A stretch of 51,040 bases of DNA from a virus: IMG/VR virus record IMGVR_UViG_3300020410_000017, positions 1-51,040 of that record; one strand, written 5' to 3'. The notes beneath the pieces are model-generated. The model saw only the letters and a program-made list of their open reading frames with translations, was not told where the DNA came from and made no database searches. A program made the translations under genes and the position numbers. Below, piece after piece: positions 5,845-47,448 of the stretch (its first letter is position 1; each line of letters starts with the position of its first letter).

Positions 5845-7008
5845 TTAGTTACAGTCAACCGCCAGCAGCGCTAAGATATCCTCAACCATCCACACCGATG
5901 GCCCCAGCAGTATTATTTCTCCGCCTGTGGGGTGAACTAGATCTTGGTAGTCACCAACAACGCCAACAATAGTAGCTGCATAAACAATAATACCAGCATC
6001 GATACACGCCGTAATAGCGTCTTGAACCGTGTTGCCTTCAATGCTCTGCGGTGCTTCATCCGAAAATACAATAATTGCTTTTGTCGAGTCTGTTCGCCAC
6101 GAGACTTCCGCACCGATACAGGTATTGTAAACGGCATCAATAGTCGGCTCAGAGCCTCCTCCAACACTTGAAACATTTGTAATAACCCCCTGAAAAGTTG
6201 CTGCATCCACAAGGTCGCTTATGAGCAACATGTTGCTGTATGTATAGGTTTCCGGCACCACGCCCCCAGGAACCCGAGCCGCACCAAAAAGACTGTCGGT
6301 GTCTTCCAGTGATCCGGCTATTCGATACGCAGTGGTTACGGACTCGCCGGTAAGGACTCCCATGGAGCCGCTCGCGTCAATGATAAAGAAAACATCGAAT
6401 TCTGACGACAAGTCTTCGTCAACAAACCCATCGCAATCATTATCTAGGCCATCGCAAATTTCTGTGGTTGGCACGCGCTCATACATGCACACAAGTTCGC
6501 CGCTCACGCACTCCATCATCCCTGCGCGGCATTCGCCATGGGCTAAAGTCTCAGGATCCGCAGTATAACAAAGCTCCATGCCATCAAGGTTATCAACCAG
6601 GCCGTCGCAATCATCATCGATGCCGTTACACTGCTCTGGTGATCCGTCTTCTCTTCCGTTACAGATTTTTTGTCCTTCATAACAAATCTCCCGTCCCGCT
6701 TGGCATGCTCCAACATCAATACCGCAAGCTTGACCCACCCACTCTTCGGCAATGTTGTTGTCCGTTGTGCCATCGCAATCATTATCGATCATGTCGCACA
6801 ATTCATCCTCGGGCGTTACCTGGCCCTCGCAATCAACCACAACGTCATTCTCGTCGCACAATGTCACCCCAGCCTCACAGATACCCTGTCCAGCCGTACC
6901 TGTGGGGCCAGTGTAACATGGCAAATTGCAGACACGGGAGACCATTACAATGTCATCATCGCATGCCTGCAAAAACATAAAAAACAATAAAAACAACACA
7001 GCTTTCAT
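5845..7008 (-). CDS. Lipoprotein with MopE-type repeats and a VWA domain, 387 aa
   Basis: The N terminus is a signal peptide with lipobox LQAC, so Cys16 is probably lipidated and the protein is exported to the cell envelope. Three repeats of the type CDGLDNDCDGFVDED (about 69-84, 126-140, 184-199) match the Asp/Cys-rich putative metal-binding motif common in MopE-like and myxobacterial surface proteins. Residues 204-387 form a von Willebrand A domain: DASGS at 211-215 is the MIDAS core, with T289 and D317 as likely further ligands. The Cys-rich linkers suggest disulfides outside the cytoplasm. It is translationally coupled (ATGA) to the gene at 7005. Such a protein is not a usual virion part; a surface-modifying or exclusion role is inferred. 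Confidence 0.85.
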   Translation of the reverse strand: MKAVLFLLFFMFLQACDDDIVMVSRVCNLPCYTGPTGTAGQGICEAGVTLCDENDVVVDCEGQVTPEDELCDMIDNDCDGTTDNNIAEEWVGQACGIDVGACQAGREICYEGQKICNGREDGSPEQCNGIDDDCDGLVDNLDGMELCYTADPETLAHGECRAGMMECVSGELVCMYERVPTTEICDGLDNDCDGFVDEDLSSEFDVFFIIDASGSMGVLTGESVTTAYRIAGSLEDTDSLFGAARVPGGVVPETYTYSNMLLISDLVDAATFQGVITNVSSVGGGSEPTIDAVYNTCIGAEVSWRTDSTKAIIVFSDEAPQSIEGNTVQDAITACIDAGIIVYAATIVGVVGDYQDLVHPTGGEIILLGPSVWMVEDILALLAVDCN

Positions 7009-7274: not shown

Positions 7275-7355
7275 GCTGCTGCCTTCGCCACAAAAAAACC
7301 GCCCCTACGGATAAAGATTCCGCAGGACCGGCAATGTGTTAAGCTTCAATTTATC

Positions 7356-7700: not shown

Positions 7701-8192
7701 ATGACTGATATTATTGCCATTCGCAATGGTTTAGCGCAGAGGACCGTTGCAAGCAACATTCTACGTCTGCGAAAAATGGGTTACGATGCTCAGCGCATTT
7801 CCGATGAGCTTGATATACCTTTGGACCGTGTTAGTAATATCATAAAAAGTGCGCTCAAGAAACTAACAAAAGAAATGAAGGGTGCCGCCGAGGAAATTCG
7901 ATGCTTGGAATTGTCACGGCTTGATGAAATGCAGACCGCGATCTGGCAAGACTGCATGGACGGCAAACTTACGGCCATTGATCGAGTGTTGAAGATAATG
8001 GAGCGCAGATCCAGGCTTGTTGGGTTGGACGCGCCCGAGCGACTAAATATTAAAACTGATATTAAAATCGAACAAATGAACGAGGCAAAAGATCGATTAA
8101 TGTCAAAAATACTAGACATGGTACCAGAAGATGAGGCAGAAGAACCTGAGCCTGTTATGGTTTTGCCTGCACCAGAGGTAGATGAGGACTGA
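7701..8192 (+). CDS. terS: Terminase small subunit, 163 aa
   Basis: This protein binds the packaging start site and loads the large subunit. Residues 20-50 (ILRLRKMGYDAQRISDELDIPLDRVSNIIKSALKKL) form an HTH. The helical middle with IDRVLKIMERRSRLVGLDAPE is a hallmark of small terminases just before their oligomerisation or portal-binding tail, and the C terminus is acidic. The gene overlaps the large subunit gene (TGATG). There is no Shine-Dalgarno sequence before the ATG; a TATTGT seven bases upstream could be a -10 box giving a leaderless transcript. Confidence 0.85.
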   Translation: MTDIIAIRNGLAQRTVASNILRLRKMGYDAQRISDELDIPLDRVSNIIKSALKKLTKEMKGAAEEIRCLELSRLDEMQTAIWQDCMDGKLTAIDRVLKIMERRSRLVGLDAPERLNIKTDIKIEQMNEAKDRLMSKILDMVPEDEAEEPEPVMVLPAPEVDED

Positions 8193-9544
8193 TGGCAACC
8201 CGTATAAAAAAACCAAAACAAGAAAAGCCGTCCACTATGGAAAAAATCCAGGCGCTTCCCGACCAAACCAAGCGTGAAATCCTTGGAACCCTGACAACCG
8301 AGCAACTCGCAGAGATGGACTACATGTGGGAAATGTGGGCTCGGCCAAAACAAATCATGCCCAAGGGTGATTGGTTTGTATGGCTGATATGTGCAGGCCG
8401 TGGCTTCGGCAAGACCCGCAGCGGCGCTGAGTTTGTTCGCATGATGGTTGAAAAGGGCCGCGCCAAGCGAGTTGCGCTCGTAGGTCGTACCGCTGCGGAC
8501 GTGCGCGATGTTATGATTGAAGGCGAGTCGGGCATCTTGGCGTGCTGCCCGCCCTGGAACCGGCCTGAGTACATTATCACTAAGCGCAGGCTCGTGTGGC
8601 CCAACGGCGCAATGGCGACCACTTACTCGTCCCAGGAGCCCGATATGCTTCGTGGCCCGCAGCATGACTTGGCTTGGTGTGATGAACTCGCAGCGTGGCA
8701 ATATGACGAGACTTTTGATCACTTGAAGCTAGGTTTGCGCTTAGGGCGCAAGCCGCGCATGTGTATAACCACCACACCAAAACCGAGCATGATGATGCGC
8801 CAGCTGTTAAAATCACAAGGCGTGCATGTCACCACCGGCTCGACCTACGAAAACAAAAGCAACTTATCGAATAATTTCTTTCAGGAAGTTGTTGGCAGAT
8901 ACGAGGGCACGTCTTTAGGGCGGCAGGAAATTTACGGTGAGCTTTTAGAAGACCTTCCAGGCTCGCTGTGGCGTTTTTCAACCATTGAACGCGCACGAGT
9001 TTCGAGGCTGCCCGAAATGCGCCGCATCGTAGTTGGCGTTGATCCGGCGATCAAATCAGACAAGGATGAGACCGGCATTGTTGTCTGCGGACTTGGCGAA
9101 GATGGGCATGGCTACATCATCGCTGATCTATCTTGCAAAGAAAGCCCGCAGAACTGGGCTCGAATTGCAATTAACGCTTTTTTTGAGTATGGTGCTGATC
9201 GTATAGTAGCTGAATCAAACCAAGGTGGTATGATGGTCGAAGAGGTAATAAAAACCGCGAACGCCAATGTGCCAGTAAAGTCTGTATGGGCCACTAAATC
9301 AAAAGCATCGCGGGCTGAACCTATTTCTGCTCTTTATGAGCAGCAAAGAGTTTTTCATGTTGGAATCTTCGAGGAGCTTGAAGACCAAATGGTGACCTAT
9401 CAGCCTGGGCAACGGAAATCTCCAGATCGACTGGACGCTATGGTTCACGCAATGACTGAGTTAATGCTGAAGCGAAAAGCACCCCTTGATCTGGCGCAAT
9501 TTAATTGGGGTTTTGGAAAACGCGACAACCCCTGGAGACTTTAA
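8192..9544 (+). CDS. terL: Terminase large subunit, 450 aa
   Basis: This is the ATPase-nuclease motor that packages DNA into the prohead. The Walker A motif is GRGFGKT at 69-75, and Walker B is DLAWCDE at 159-165 with the catalytic acidic pair at its end. The nuclease domain starts at about 280 with VVGVDPAIKSDKDETGIVV, the RNase H-like first Asp, and continues with AESNQGG near 350. Length is normal for the Terminase_6-type family. It is coupled to the small subunit by TGATG and to the portal by TAATG. Confidence 0.95.
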   Translation: MATRIKKPKQEKPSTMEKIQALPDQTKREILGTLTTEQLAEMDYMWEMWARPKQIMPKGDWFVWLICAGRGFGKTRSGAEFVRMMVEKGRAKRVALVGRTAADVRDVMIEGESGILACCPPWNRPEYIITKRRLVWPNGAMATTYSSQEPDMLRGPQHDLAWCDELAAWQYDETFDHLKLGLRLGRKPRMCITTTPKPSMMMRQLLKSQGVHVTTGSTYENKSNLSNNFFQEVVGRYEGTSLGRQEIYGELLEDLPGSLWRFSTIERARVSRLPEMRRIVVGVDPAIKSDKDETGIVVCGLGEDGHGYIIADLSCKESPQNWARIAINAFFEYGADRIVAESNQGGMMVEEVIKTANANVPVKSVWATKSKASRAEPISALYEQQRVFHVGIFEELEDQMVTYQPGQRKSPDRLDAMVHAMTELMLKRKAPLDLAQFNWGFGKRDNPWRL

Positions 9545-10896
9545 TGCCACGTTCCCCTAATTTGGATGTTTTAGGATATTCCGGCCTCAATCAAACCGGT
9601 GGAAATATTTATGAAGAATGGCTGAATAAGCTATCTGGCGACCGCGCAACCCGAGTATATCAGGAAATGCGCGACAACGACGCAATTATCGGAGCGATTC
9701 TATACGCCATCAAAGCGCTGGTTCGACAAGTCCCGTGGGCGGTTGCGGAAAATCATTCCGGCCACCCGCAGGCCGAACGCGCAGCAGAGTTTTTGCGTGA
9801 GTGCGCGTTTGATGACATGTCGCTGACTTGGGAAGACTTGATATCGGAAATCTTGAGCATGTTGGTTTTTGGGTACTCGGCTTTTGAGATTGTATATAAA
9901 ATCCGGCGCGGCCCCAGCTCTAGGAGTTCTAAGTATAAGTCTAAGTATACAGACGGGCTCATTGGATGGCGAAAGATCGCTATGCGCGGCCAGGATTCAA
10001 TTTCCCGCTGGGAGATTGATGAGGATGGCGGCATCAGGGGTTTTTATCAAAACGGTGGCCCTGATTTTCAGACCGTGTTTATTCCCATGCAAAAAGCACT
10101 GCTGTTTCGGACAGAGGTCAACAAAAACAATCCCGAAGGACGGTCGCTGCTGCGGAACGCCTATCGGTCCTATTTTTTCTTAAAGCGCATCCAGGAACTC
10201 GAAGCCATCGGAATTGAGCGTGAGCTTGCAGGCCTGCCTGTGTTGCAGGTTCCGCCAGAAATCATGATGCCCAATGCAAAGGCGGAGCAAAAAACTCTTC
10301 GCAACAACCTTGAAACTCTAATCCAGCAAATCCGGCGCGACGAACGAGAAGGCGTTTTAATGCCTTCCGAAGTGGACTCTGACAACCGGCCCACAGGGTT
10401 TAAGTTGTCGCTTTTGTCCACCGGTGGCCGCCGTCAAATTGACACCAACGAGACCATTAAGCGGTACGAGTCCCGTATTGCCATGTCTGTACTGGCCGAG
10501 TTTATTTTGCTTGGTACCGACTCCCACGGCTCCTTCGCCCTGGCGTCATCTAAAACTGAGCTTTTTGCTGCGGCACTGGGCGGGATATTGGACTCTATTG
10601 AGGCGGTCATGAATCGGTTTGCCGTTACACGGCTCATGCAGCTTAATCCGGTTTTTCCTCCCGAGGCATGGCCTCGATTTAAGCACGGCGACATTGAAAA
10701 GGCCCCATTGGATGAGATTGGCACTTTTATTCAGCGTGTTGCTGGCGCAAACCTAATCACGCCTGATGCGGCCATTGAGGCAAAAATAAGAGAAATTGCC
10801 GGACTGCCCGAGGCTGGACCCGAAACCGCATTGATTGAAGAAGATGCAGAGGAAGACATGTTGCAGGAGGAAGAAGATGCCCTACAAGACGCCTGA
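9544..10896 (+). CDS. Portal protein, DUF935 (Mu gp29-like) type, 450 aa
   Basis: It forms the dodecameric DNA gate at one capsid vertex. The pattern RVYQEMRDNDAIIGAILYAI near the N terminus, VFGYSAFEIVYK in the middle and the acidic C terminus are typical of DUF935 portals. The start at 9544 overlaps the terminase stop (TAATG) and has TGGAG upstream; a longer frame from 9505 lies inside the terminase gene. The last 20 codons overlap the next gene in another frame. Confidence 0.85.
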   Translation: MPRSPNLDVLGYSGLNQTGGNIYEEWLNKLSGDRATRVYQEMRDNDAIIGAILYAIKALVRQVPWAVAENHSGHPQAERAAEFLRECAFDDMSLTWEDLISEILSMLVFGYSAFEIVYKIRRGPSSRSSKYKSKYTDGLIGWRKIAMRGQDSISRWEIDEDGGIRGFYQNGGPDFQTVFIPMQKALLFRTEVNKNNPEGRSLLRNAYRSYFFLKRIQELEAIGIERELAGLPVLQVPPEIMMPNAKAEQKTLRNNLETLIQQIRRDEREGVLMPSEVDSDNRPTGFKLSLLSTGGRRQIDTNETIKRYESRIAMSVLAEFILLGTDSHGSFALASSKTELFAAALGGILDSIEAVMNRFAVTRLMQLNPVFPPEAWPRFKHGDIEKAPLDEIGTFIQRVAGANLITPDAAIEAKIREIAGLPEAGPETALIEEDAEEDMLQEEEDALQDA

Positions 10897-12517
10897 GCAG
10901 GCCTACGCCGTAGCGCGGTCAATGGGATGTGATTCAGTACATAAAATGCCGAACGGGTCATATATGCCCTGTGGCTCGAACGAGGAATATCAGAGGATGA
11001 AAAAAGATGGAATCGATAAGGCGAATAATTCAATACCGCTGCCTGTTGAGAATGCTTTGCGTAGAAAAATGCGATCCCACAACAAAAGGTTCGGAGAGAA
11101 TAAAGAAACTCGTACAACTCTTGGAGCTTTAAAGTCTGTGTACAAGCGCGGGCTCGACACCTATAAGCCTAATCGCGCTCAAACGCCCGAGAAGTGGGCC
11201 ATGGGATATGTCAACTCATACCTGAACCGGCTCGGCCCAAAAAAAATGGAAAAAACCAGCGATATTTTTAAGGCCCGTGAGGCATTCAATGGACTCTACC
11301 CGCTCATGGTTTCCGCAGACGGCCAGCACCCGTCCGAGGCTCGCTCATGGCAAGACTTTGTGATGCTTGCGAAGTCCTGCACAAAAGCCTTCGCGAGCAT
11401 TGATGATAGGCCATTTTTTATTTTCAATCGAGCCCCTCAAATTGTGCTGAAGGTAGACGAGAAGAAAAATCATTCTTTATTTCCTGGGAAGCACCGATAC
11501 CGTCTTGTGGACAACGAGGGCAACACCATTGAAACGGGCTGGGTTGATGAAGACTTTAGTATAGCGGATCATGTTAGGGTTGATGGGGTTGATGAGGAAA
11601 TTACATCGGTAACAAGCACCACACTAACCGACGAAGACAGCATTATCGAAGATATTGCAACCGTTATCTCAGAGGCAACGACGACAGAAGAATATTTGGG
11701 CGGAATTATTCCCAACAAGGTTGAAAAAAACGCCACCATTGTCTTTTTGTCTTTGATGCCGACTCTTGACGAGAAAAACGCAGGCCGTGCTCTTGCTGGC
11801 AGTATTGAGAAGAATTTGACGGAACAAATTATTGACCCCATTGAGGCTGACTTGTCCCAGGTAAGCTTTGTCAACATTGTCCCTTTTGAGACCCTTGATG
11901 CAGGCGGAAAGAGATCTACCCCCTCTCGGGAACTTGTCGAGCAATGGTCACCGGTGGTGCTTGACGCCATTGGCAAAGCCGACCACCGCGCCGTTGTTGT
12001 GGCGCTGGGCAAGGACACCGCAGAGCATTACGCCGATGTGGTTGATTTTGTTATGCCGCACCCATTTTCAAAGTCCAAATACAGCCTTCCTCGAAAAGTC
12101 GAAGAGCTTAAAAAAACATATTCCAGCAAGTTTGATCGACAGGTTAAAATTGCCAAAAGCGACATTGACAGACGTTTAGTTTACGGTGTTGTTTTGGAGC
12201 CAGAAGTAATTGATGCACATAATGACATTGTTTCGATTGACGAAATCGAAAACGCAGCGCATAATTACCTCATAAAGTCTCGAATGATTGGCGATCAGCA
12301 CAGCAAGCCAGCCAAAGCAGACATAGTAGAAAGTTACATTGCACCCGCCGATCTGGATATAGGTGGTCAGCAAATCAAAAAAGGCTCTTGGGTCATGGTT
12401 ACGAAAGTACACGATGACAACATGTGGAGCGGGATCAAGAAGGGTGCCTATACAGGTTACTCTATTGGTGGCTACGCAGTAAAAGAGCCGATTGAAGACG
12501 GGCGTTTAGCACAGTAA
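10877..12517 (+). CDS. XkdF-type head maturation protein with an internal UDG-like domain, 546 aa
   Basis: The C-terminal 110 residues (434-540) match the XkdF putative prohead protease family, with GDQHSK (H475) and YTGYSIGG (S529) in the usual places. Residues 286-400 resemble a uracil-DNA-glycosylase-type fold: LMPTLDEKNAGRALAGS, then VNIVPF...RSTPSRELVEQW, then VVVALGKDTAEHY, and MPHPFSKSK at the position of the HPS loop. The N terminus (1-45) is a small conserved phage-type module. The start at 10877 has GGAGG six bases upstream and lies within the portal gene's end. The glycosylase activity is untested; the domain may be structural. Confidence 0.75.
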   Translation: MPYKTPEQAYAVARSMGCDSVHKMPNGSYMPCGSNEEYQRMKKDGIDKANNSIPLPVENALRRKMRSHNKRFGENKETRTTLGALKSVYKRGLDTYKPNRAQTPEKWAMGYVNSYLNRLGPKKMEKTSDIFKAREAFNGLYPLMVSADGQHPSEARSWQDFVMLAKSCTKAFASIDDRPFFIFNRAPQIVLKVDEKKNHSLFPGKHRYRLVDNEGNTIETGWVDEDFSIADHVRVDGVDEEITSVTSTTLTDEDSIIEDIATVISEATTTEEYLGGIIPNKVEKNATIVFLSLMPTLDEKNAGRALAGSIEKNLTEQIIDPIEADLSQVSFVNIVPFETLDAGGKRSTPSRELVEQWSPVVLDAIGKADHRAVVVALGKDTAEHYADVVDFVMPHPFSKSKYSLPRKVEELKKTYSSKFDRQVKIAKSDIDRRLVYGVVLEPEVIDAHNDIVSIDEIENAAHNYLIKSRMIGDQHSKPAKADIVESYIAPADLDIGGQQIKKGSWVMVTKVHDDNMWSGIKKGAYTGYSIGGYAVKEPIEDGRLAQ

Positions 12518-44304: not shown

Positions 44305-44859
44305 TTAGACCTCATCATAGGTCATTGCTTGTTTCATTTTATCCAGTGCTTCTTTTCTTATCATTGAAACGCCTGACTCTGTAAGATTCATGCTTTCGCC
44401 AATCTTTTTAAGGGTGTCTCCCCTGTAAAAGCTCAGCCATATTATAGAGATTTCTCTGGCGCTTAACCTAGAAAAACCAAACGCCAGTAAAAGCCTTGTG
44501 TCCACGATATCAAAACCTCGTTCCCTGGTGGGGATTTCTGTGTTTTCAACGCAAAGGCTTTCGGTCATAGGGTCAAGATCCCTGATGACATCCCCAAGAT
44601 AAAGATCTTTGCGGTGGCCAATAATTTTCTTGGCCTTTCGCACTATACGATCTTTTTTTGGGTCTTCTCGACGGATACCATCTATAATGGCGTATTTAAT
44701 TTTCCACTGAGCGTAGCTCTCAAAGCTTATGTTGCTGTTTTCTGGAGAATAAGTTTCAACGGCTTTTTGATATCCGATCCACCCGTAGCCATACAGATCT
44801 CTTTTGTTGTGCGGCAATCTCATTCTCGCAACGGTTGCCCTTATAAGCCTCATCATCAT
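44305..44859 (-). CDS. Phage-encoded sigma factor, FliA/sigma-28-like, 184 aa
   Basis: This would direct host RNA polymerase to phage promoters. Region 2 (about 20-66) reads DLYGYGWIGYQKAVETYSPEN..FESYAQWKIKYAIIDGIRREDP, very close to the FliA/WhiG pattern. Region 4 (131-178) has an HTH (GDTLKKIGESMNLTESGVSMIRKEALDKM). Region 3 is short. The start at 44859 overlaps the previous stop (ATGATG); a longer frame is inside that gene. Lying in the early region, it is well placed to switch on late genes. Confidence 0.85.
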   Translation of the reverse strand: MMMRLIRATVARMRLPHNKRDLYGYGWIGYQKAVETYSPENSNISFESYAQWKIKYAIIDGIRREDPKKDRIVRKAKKIIGHRKDLYLGDVIRDLDPMTESLCVENTEIPTRERGFDIVDTRLLLAFGFSRLSAREISIIWLSFYRGDTLKKIGESMNLTESGVSMIRKEALDKMKQAMTYDEV

Positions 44860-45059
44860 AACAGCGCATGCCTTTCCGCGAAACATTTCGCCAAGGCCAG
44901 CGAATGATGACAGCAAAGATAATCCCATCCGCGCCCGCTGTTGCGATAAACCCAGAAACTCTTGGCCGTCGCTTCATAAATTCTATACTGACAGCCCATG
45001 ATCGATGCCGCCGCACAGCCCTTATCTGTTTTTATGTTTTGCCACGCTGTTAAGGTCAT
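44856..45059 (-). CDS. Small Cys/Trp-rich protein, 67 aa
   Basis: Not recognised. It has LTAWQNIKTDKGCAAAS, FWVYRNSGRGWDYLCCHHSLALAKCFAERHALL and four Cys. It is ATGA-coupled to the sigma factor gene, and the overlap explains the absence of a strong separate start for the sigma gene. A partner or antagonist of the sigma factor is an attractive guess without direct evidence. Confidence 0.55.
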   Translation of the reverse strand: MTLTAWQNIKTDKGCAAASIMGCQYRIYEATAKSFWVYRNSGRGWDYLCCHHSLALAKCFAERHALL

Positions 45060-46253: not shown

Positions 46254-46624
46254 ATAATCGCCACCAGGCCCAATGCCTCAGCGGCCTCGGATGCGCATAT
46301 GGCATTAAAAAGATCTTCATCGGTCTTCACGTCATCGTATTTTTTAAGGTCTGCGATTGAAAATTTTTCATAAAGGGGGGTCATGCAGAACCCATCTTTA
46401 TGCTTGAAAAGGCCATAGGTGACGCTTCGCACGCCCAGACCGGAAGTGTCACGCCATGCCCGAAGATGGGCTACCAATTCTTCATCGTCGCAGGGCTCAA
46501 AGGCAAAGTCTGGTATGCCCACACAGCCGCGCACGATAACCCAGCCCAAGTCATCGACCTCAACCGAGTCCATGTTTGGCGTGCGCCACCGAAGGCCCGT
46601 CCATTCTGCAAACTCTAACCCCAT
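46250..46624 (-). CDS. Unknown protein, 124 aa
   Basis: Not recognised. It starts GLEFAEWTGLRWRTPNMDSVEVDDLGWVIVRGC and ends in an acidic helix (EDLFNAICASEAAEALGLVAII). Neither possible ATG (46624 or 46642) has a strong ribosome-binding site, so coupling to the overlapping peptidase gene is likely. Confidence 0.55.
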   Translation of the reverse strand: MGLEFAEWTGLRWRTPNMDSVEVDDLGWVIVRGCVGIPDFAFEPCDDEELVAHLRAWRDTSGLGVRSVTYGLFKHKDGFCMTPLYEKFSIADLKKYDDVKTDEDLFNAICASEAAEALGLVAII

Positions 46625-47448
46625 CGGCTCTTGTCCATGCATTTTTTTATTTTTTGAATAACAGTGTCCGGCTTGGCGCAAACGTCAGGCTCGTGATCGA
46701 TGGCGCTCCAAACCTCATACTGTCGACCCCAATCGCCGTAAGGGAAAGTGCAATGGCCACGCGAGCCCCAATTGTACCCCCATGAATTTCGTATCTGAAA
46801 GCCGTGAAGATCCCAGCCAACAACGGCCATGGCATGGCCGCCCATCTTTTTGTAACCCTGCTCTTTGATCCACATGCGTGAAGGTATGATATATTTTTGG
46901 TGCTCTACGGTTGACGATCCGGTCCACGGTTTTGCATAAACCGGCACCACGATAACACATGGGCCATTAAGGTAAATTGCGCGTTTGGTATCCTGAACAG
47001 TCGTACACTTCGCGAAGCCTTGAATGCGATAAAACTCGGCTTCTTTTTTTAGCTCCGAAGCCATCTTTTTTAGCCCGATGGGCGGTGTGTCTTTCCCTTG
47101 ACGGTAAGGATACGACTTTTCCAGCGGTGCGCCATGTACACGCAAAAATTTCAGGGCATTGCGAACATTCATGCCACGCCCAGATCGGTTTTTTGGGCGG
47201 CAGTCGTAAATAAACTGTGGGCTCAGATAACCTTTATCCAGCAAATGTTTAAGGTTGTTTCGCTCTTGCATCGCCGCAAGGGACTGGGCCACGCATGACC
47301 CTTGTGGCCCCTGGTTGCGGATTCCAAACATATCCTCCCTTAAAGAAAAACTTTCAGGAAGGGGGGGCCTTGTTGCCACTGCTTGATCAAAAAGAAGATC
47401 GCGTTCATCGTAGGGCGATGCCGCGATCATAAAATCTGGATTTTTCAA
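46615..47448 (-). CDS. Papain-like (C1 family) cysteine peptidase, 277 aa
   Basis: The catalytic set is complete: oxyanion-hole Q46 and nucleophile C52 in QGPQGSC, spaced as in papain; H205 in GGHAMAVVGW; N221 in IRNSWGYNWG. There is no signal peptide or long propeptide, so it should act in the host cytoplasm; the first 40 residues may serve as a short regulatory segment. The start is TTG at 47448, overlapping the previous stop, or ATG at 47430. It is encoded among early genes, not virion genes, which suggests cleavage of host or early phage proteins. Confidence 0.9.
   Translation of the reverse strand: MKNPDFMIAASPYDERDLLFDQAVATRPPLPESFSLREDMFGIRNQGPQGSCVAQSLAAMQERNNLKHLLDKGYLSPQFIYDCRPKNRSGRGMNVRNALKFLRVHGAPLEKSYPYRQGKDTPPIGLKKMASELKKEAEFYRIQGFAKCTTVQDTKRAIYLNGPCVIVVPVYAKPWTGSSTVEHQKYIIPSRMWIKEQGYKKMGGHAMAVVGWDLHGFQIRNSWGYNWGSRGHCTFPYGDWGRQYEVWSAIDHEPDVCAKPDTVIQKIKKCMDKSRWG

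Follow-up and report, generated by a model that had tools for sequence, protein, structure and literature searches.

The phage genome analysed here encodes P0001, a lipoprotein in which a stalk of MopE-type repeats carries a C-terminal VWA domain, and this architecture recurs in uncultivated phages. The window, that is, the whole stretch of DNA that was analysed, is a 51,040-bp IMG/VR virus record, with the gene on its minus strand (5845..7008). We consider, with a probability of about 0.4, that P0001 is a lipid-anchored, metal-dependent binder that alters the envelope of the infected cell, superinfection exclusion being its most likely use. In the proposed mechanism, the infected cell would export and acylate P0001, the disulfide-rich Asp/Cys repeat stalk would carry the VWA head, and this head would grip a protein ligand through a MIDAS metal ion. 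The binding of a host envelope protein would then alter the infected-cell surface, and the single most likely use of such an alteration would be the blocking of a phage receptor.

The anatomy of P0001 is secure. Its open reading frame, whose span 5845-7008 takes in the stop codon, encodes 387 aa, and the order signal peptide, three MopE-type repeats and VWA domain is backed by orthologues. The N-terminus reads MKAVLFLLFFMFLQAC16-DDD, a signal peptide with the lipobox LQAC followed by Asp-Asp-Asp (6961..7008, minus strand, as are all the features of this gene); Cys16 would be the acylated residue, and export and lipidation can safely be inferred. The repeats ELCDMIDNDCDGTTD (E69-D83, 6760..6804), EQCNGIDDDCDGLVD (E125-D139, 6592..6636) and EICDGLDNDCDGFVD (E183-D197, 6418..6462) are identified as MopE-type by the PF11617 model, which matches P0001 in three stretches with 46.5 bits against a cut-off of 27. 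In the stalk, acidic residues outnumber basic ones by 46 to 6, the cysteines of the protein number 23, and the Asp/Cys repeats are probably disulfide-rich and calcium-binding, calcium being the putative ligand. The VWA, or I-like, domain occupies residues 203-387 (5848..6402) and is recognised by PF00092 (24.2 bits against a cut-off of 23.8, residues 205-347), by an AF2 model and by fold matches. In its MIDAS motif, D211-A-S213-G-S215 (6364..6378), the D, S, G and S are invariant in 38 phage sequences, as are E287 of the GGGSEP motif (6148..6150) and the MIDAS aspartate D317 in SDEAPQ (6058..6060). The PF00092 score, a fold Z of about 20 and these invariant residues together identify a VWA domain with a MIDAS; E287 probably also serves as a MIDAS ligand, in the manner of integrin beta, and ligand binding via the MIDAS is likely. 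Thus, the sequence-only reading, which had described a lipobox, three Asp/Cys repeats and a VWA domain with an intact DxSxS MIDAS, was correct on all these elements.

The AF2 model of P0001, for which 26 phage homologues were used, shows the VWA head (mean pLDDT 84, pTM 0.55); integrin beta headpieces top the Foldseek list obtained with it (E 4.5e-10), and a profile search of the PDB finds integrin I domains. In VIA-align, the integrin beta headpiece (Z 20.9, rmsd 3.1 over 185 residues) is tied with VWF A2 (Z 20.3). P0001 is therefore like integrin beta I-like and VWF A domains in fold (Z about 20), in its MIDAS and in the probable Glu ligand, and a MIDAS of the beta-integrin type is suggested by the invariant Glu in GG-x-EP, a suggestion drawn from sequence. 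However, P0001 differs from integrin beta in that no hybrid or PSI domain is evident, the integrin beta model PF00362 gives it 13.2 bits against a cut-off of 24.8, and no common function is implied.

Modelled alone, the stalk reaches a pLDDT of 84, and in the PDB it has neither a fold match (best E 1.7) nor a sequence match. MopE of Methylococcus capsulatus, the namesake of PF11617, has in common with P0001 a 30-residue Asp/Cys repeat motif, to which P0001 adds the VWA head. The copper site of MopE requires two His and a kynurenine (PMC3423442), whereas the stalk of P0001 has one His, H157, and one tryptophan noted, W90, the other His of the protein, H359, lying in the head. A copper-binding function was thus rejected for P0001, since a single stalk His makes a two-His site impossible.

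Regarding the genome, the ends of the window overlap by 142 bp with 98.6% identity, so that it is probably complete, and its genes include TerL, a Mu-type portal, a prohead protease, an amidase, RecE/RecT-like proteins, a primase/helicase and a sigma factor; its earlier description as phage DNA is supported, and the capsid-E match is weak, below its cut-off. The same operon lies by the same terminase in a contig of 51,039 bp from another metagenome (L003), whose lipoprotein is 88% identical (Ka/Ks 0.07), and the same context is kept in L038 and L039, with lipoproteins about 55% identical to P0001. Since these three orthologues keep the architecture under Ka/Ks values of 0.07-0.22, it is not due to chance. 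Neither of two objections foreseen in the sequence-only reading holds: the gene is not absent from all related phages, being present in L003, L038 and L039, and a contaminant join was rejected on the grounds of the sibling contig L003, the composition and the 142-bp end overlap. TerL has its best matches in sampled genomes of the phylum Myxococcota (48%), Microcystis phages (52%) and Brevundimonas phages (47%), and it is uninformative about the host because the Myxococcota-phylum match is no closer than those to the phages.

Other genes of these genomes deserve mention. The window encodes, on the minus strand, a phage sigma-70-type factor with Sigma70_r2 and r4 (44305-44928), which could time gene expression, and a papain-family C1 cysteine protease (46615-47448, 71 bits), unusual for a phage. 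A single open reading frame (10835-12517) joins an N-terminal DUF3721, a UDG-superfamily-like middle part and the prohead protease Peptidase_S78_2. A C5 cytosine methyltransferase gene adjoins the lipoprotein gene in L003 (9265-10050) and also in L039, and not in the window.

Upstream of P0001 lies P0002 (7005..7274, minus strand), which encodes an 89-aa soluble protein conserved in L003, L038 and L039, and whose stop overlaps the P0001 start by 4 nt (ATGA). Taking into account this overlap and that no clear ribosome-binding site precedes the P0001 start, the translation of the two genes is probably coupled, and the P0001 start seems to depend on this coupling. Further upstream and in the same orientation, P0003 (7356..7661) encodes a 101-aa helix-turn-helix protein (HTH_7, 25.2 bits against a cut-off of 23.8), and between its end and P0002 there are 81 bp containing a terminator-like hairpin followed by T7 (7303..7327, minus strand). 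The hairpin is conserved: in four related phages the T run and the stem base are kept and the inner stem differs, with a double change at three pairs, in a comparison of four sequences only. Because of the gap and the hairpin, P0003 is not coupled to P0002; thus, of the two small coupled genes proposed from the sequence, P0002 stands and the helix-turn-helix gene has to be set aside. Since the hairpin precedes P0002, P0002 and the lipoprotein gene are probably expressed only under certain conditions. The proximity of the helix-turn-helix gene to the terminase was well observed: P0003 adjoins, and is divergent from, a small-terminase-like helix-turn-helix gene (7701..8192, plus strand), so called by its position (PHROG 645, which it matches, is labelled RNase E), after which comes TerL (8192..9544, plus strand).

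It could be argued that P0001 belongs to the virion, being either anchored to the particle or built into it during assembly, taking into account that the gene follows structural-looking genes in the L020-L035 group. However, only in a membrane protein that is exported would a lipobox serve a purpose, and in the window the gene and the structural genes lie on opposite strands. P0001 is thus probably not a virion part, and we regard this explanation as very improbable.

The family to which P0001 belongs is found in uncultivated phages. A search of IMG/VR with the full-length alignment gave 218 related loci, the top 80 of these being retained, and further loci were reached via the VWA part. A lipobox, at least one repeat and DxSGS were recognised by pattern in 67 of the 71 non-redundant loci examined, and a lipobox-like N-terminus in 70, the lipobox pattern used for these counts being permissive. 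The contigs of IMG/VR are predictions, and phage hallmark genes were checked in the window and its group. Repeat number ranges from 1 to 8 and protein size from 387 to about 750 aa, the order from lipid anchor to head being constant. The invariant positions of the 38-sequence alignment include D-x-S-G-S, one Glu, D-E and the last Cys, whereas residue +2 after the lipobox Cys varies across the family. The stalk changes about as fast as the head, so that no rapidly evolving binding face stands out clearly. Long branches are numerous in the VWA-domain tree, and only two features were taken from it: a group formed by the window, L003, L038 and L039 (support 100/100) and the split that sets generic bacterial VWA domains apart (89/88). 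Three family members had no match among 50,697 GenBank phage records (INPHARED), nor did P0001 among plasmids. An unnamed viral protein in BFVD (A0A516KYY5), 51% identical over 266 aa, is of the same family, its entry being shorter (266 aa) and unannotated. In the literature searched, no paper on phage MopE/VWA lipoproteins was found. As a separate observation, L004 (1036-7606) encodes a run of proteins with a common N-terminal MKLLFENWRxYLxE-like leader, possibly a targeting signal, and similar leaders occur in L102 and L232.

In bacteria, the closest repeat proteins are mostly from Myxococcota, with a match that covers the repeats only, in agreement with the Myxococcota-like link that had been suggested for these repeats. 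Most hits of the VWA profile in about 960 bacterial genomes, drawn largely from three phyla, were weak, and the ones looked at lacked repeats; one bacterial open reading frame of 1,230 aa (L182) combines one repeat with a VWA hit that is weak. The full architecture was found in two contigs only. The first, from G233, is a 35-kb contig with many genes common to the phages, and is phage-derived; the second, from G462, encodes a protein of 409 aa with ordinary chromosomal genes on both sides. This chromosomal protein (L236:1173-2402, G462:C516) has the exact phage architecture and is a single case in 147 genomes of its class. Thus, the architecture is rare yet present in bacteria, and the joint search of phages and bacteria advised in the sequence-only reading does not support its view of the combination as typical of bacteria and foreign to phages, with 67 of 71 IMG/VR loci against two contigs in about 960 genomes.

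The likeness of the repeats to Myxococcota proteins and the existence of this chromosomal gene would suit a recently captured host gene, carried as a passenger without phage function. This is extremely improbable, however, given the Ka/Ks of 0.07, the phage-like GC3 of the gene (0.48 vs 0.51), its fixed position beside the terminase in four related phages and its tens of carriers. The presence of the family in dozens of uncultivated phages and its rarity in sampled bacteria rather suggest that this lipoprotein serves phages to modify the surface of their host cells during infection.

The neighbours of the gene across the family bear on how this change might be used. Among non-redundant neighbour genes, those at most two positions from the target are signal-peptide-like, by a simple heuristic, in 21 of 121 cases against 28 of 457 far ones (Fisher p 2e-4). 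An SLT transglycosylase, VanY, Amidase_3, trypsin-like protease or Zn-protease lipoprotein is encoded at most three genes away in 30 of 71 loci, a count biased by the choice of enzyme families, which was made with the neighbours already known; only six such genes lie elsewhere in the same loci, and several separate lineages are involved. The main rival explanation is that of an accessory to lysis or egress, in which the lipoprotein would act late in infection as a partner of exported proteases and peptidoglycan hydrolases. It might, for instance, tether or steer these enzymes to envelope proteins, or help to breach the outer membrane. In L062 and L080, the gene sits between an amidase and a tyrosine recombinase, and in L080 a further small lipoprotein lies between amidase and target, but any late accessory gene may sit at such a spot. 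A non-redundant Pfam scan gave 6 of 103 near families against about 2 of 102 far ones. Moreover, a lysis-cassette location, true of many relatives, is not that of the window, where the amidase endolysin lies at 31.3-32.1 kb, 24 kb off and on the other strand, and the hydrolase/protease pairing is absent. This role is accordingly judged unlikely, although the hydrolase and protease neighbours in many other phages fit lysis too.

A conserved exported cassette has also been observed about 1-3 kb upstream of the target in L036, L048, L054 and L067: a trypsin-like lipoprotein is divergent from a membrane-anchored protein of ~155 aa that directly precedes the VWA lipoprotein, and in L048 an M50 protease adjoins the cassette.

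It might also be thought that P0001 is the product of a conversion gene, an integrin-like adhesin by which the infected or lysogenic cell would aggregate or attach to surfaces, aiding spread. VWA/MIDAS domains are classic adhesion domains, and a precedent of this kind exists in Myxococcus CglB and CglD, VWA lipoproteins drawn at the cell surface of myxobacteria (PMC4488436); these are like P0001 as VWA-bearing lipoproteins, a comparison of architecture only, and differ from it in being host chromosomal, gliding-motility proteins. Some carriers look temperate, since the genes of L062 and L080 adjoin tyrosine recombinases. However, the window ORFs that were scanned included no recognisable integrase. 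Many carriers also combine a large genome with genes for DNA polymerase, GroEL and nucleotide metabolism, a combination suggestive of lytic phages. An adhesin is therefore rather improbable.

Envelope modification with superinfection exclusion is favoured because it fits known phage lipoproteins such as Llp (PMC9586334), and the bacterial CglB and CglD count for it as well. Of the roles offered in the sequence-only reading, surface remodelling, a block of superinfection and cell contact may each apply. Llp of T5 blocks the receptor FhuA, an established mechanism also for the Cor family; it is small and acts on FhuA from the periplasm (PMC9586334). Like Llp and Cor, P0001 is phage-encoded, would be made in the infected cell and bears a lipoprotein signal (LQAC), but these proteins are small and, as far as known, have neither VWA nor MopE repeats, whereas the P0001 family is much larger, and a PHROGs scan of P0001 gave no Llp or Cor match. 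It has to be noted that P0001 has Asp residues at +2/+3. According to the E. coli rule, Asp at these positions after the lipobox Cys would lead to retention in the inner membrane, so that surface display of P0001 is no more than a possibility.

Tentatively, it can be proposed that phages of several lineages own an integrin-like lipoprotein family that would grip a host envelope protein via a beta-integrin-type MIDAS and, as part of the same tentative reading, that this family is now commoner in uncultivated viruses than in sampled bacteria. If true, this would be a mode of surface takeover or superinfection exclusion based on a large lipoprotein, with no described counterpart, and many uncultivated phages would recode the infected-cell surface with a receptor-like protein instead of a small blocking lipoprotein. 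Laboratory models would miss the family, since the members tested have no match in INPHARED. With its lipid anchor and metal-dependent head, this family would offer a defined and testable handle on envelope contacts, exclusion and lysis in poorly studied hosts.
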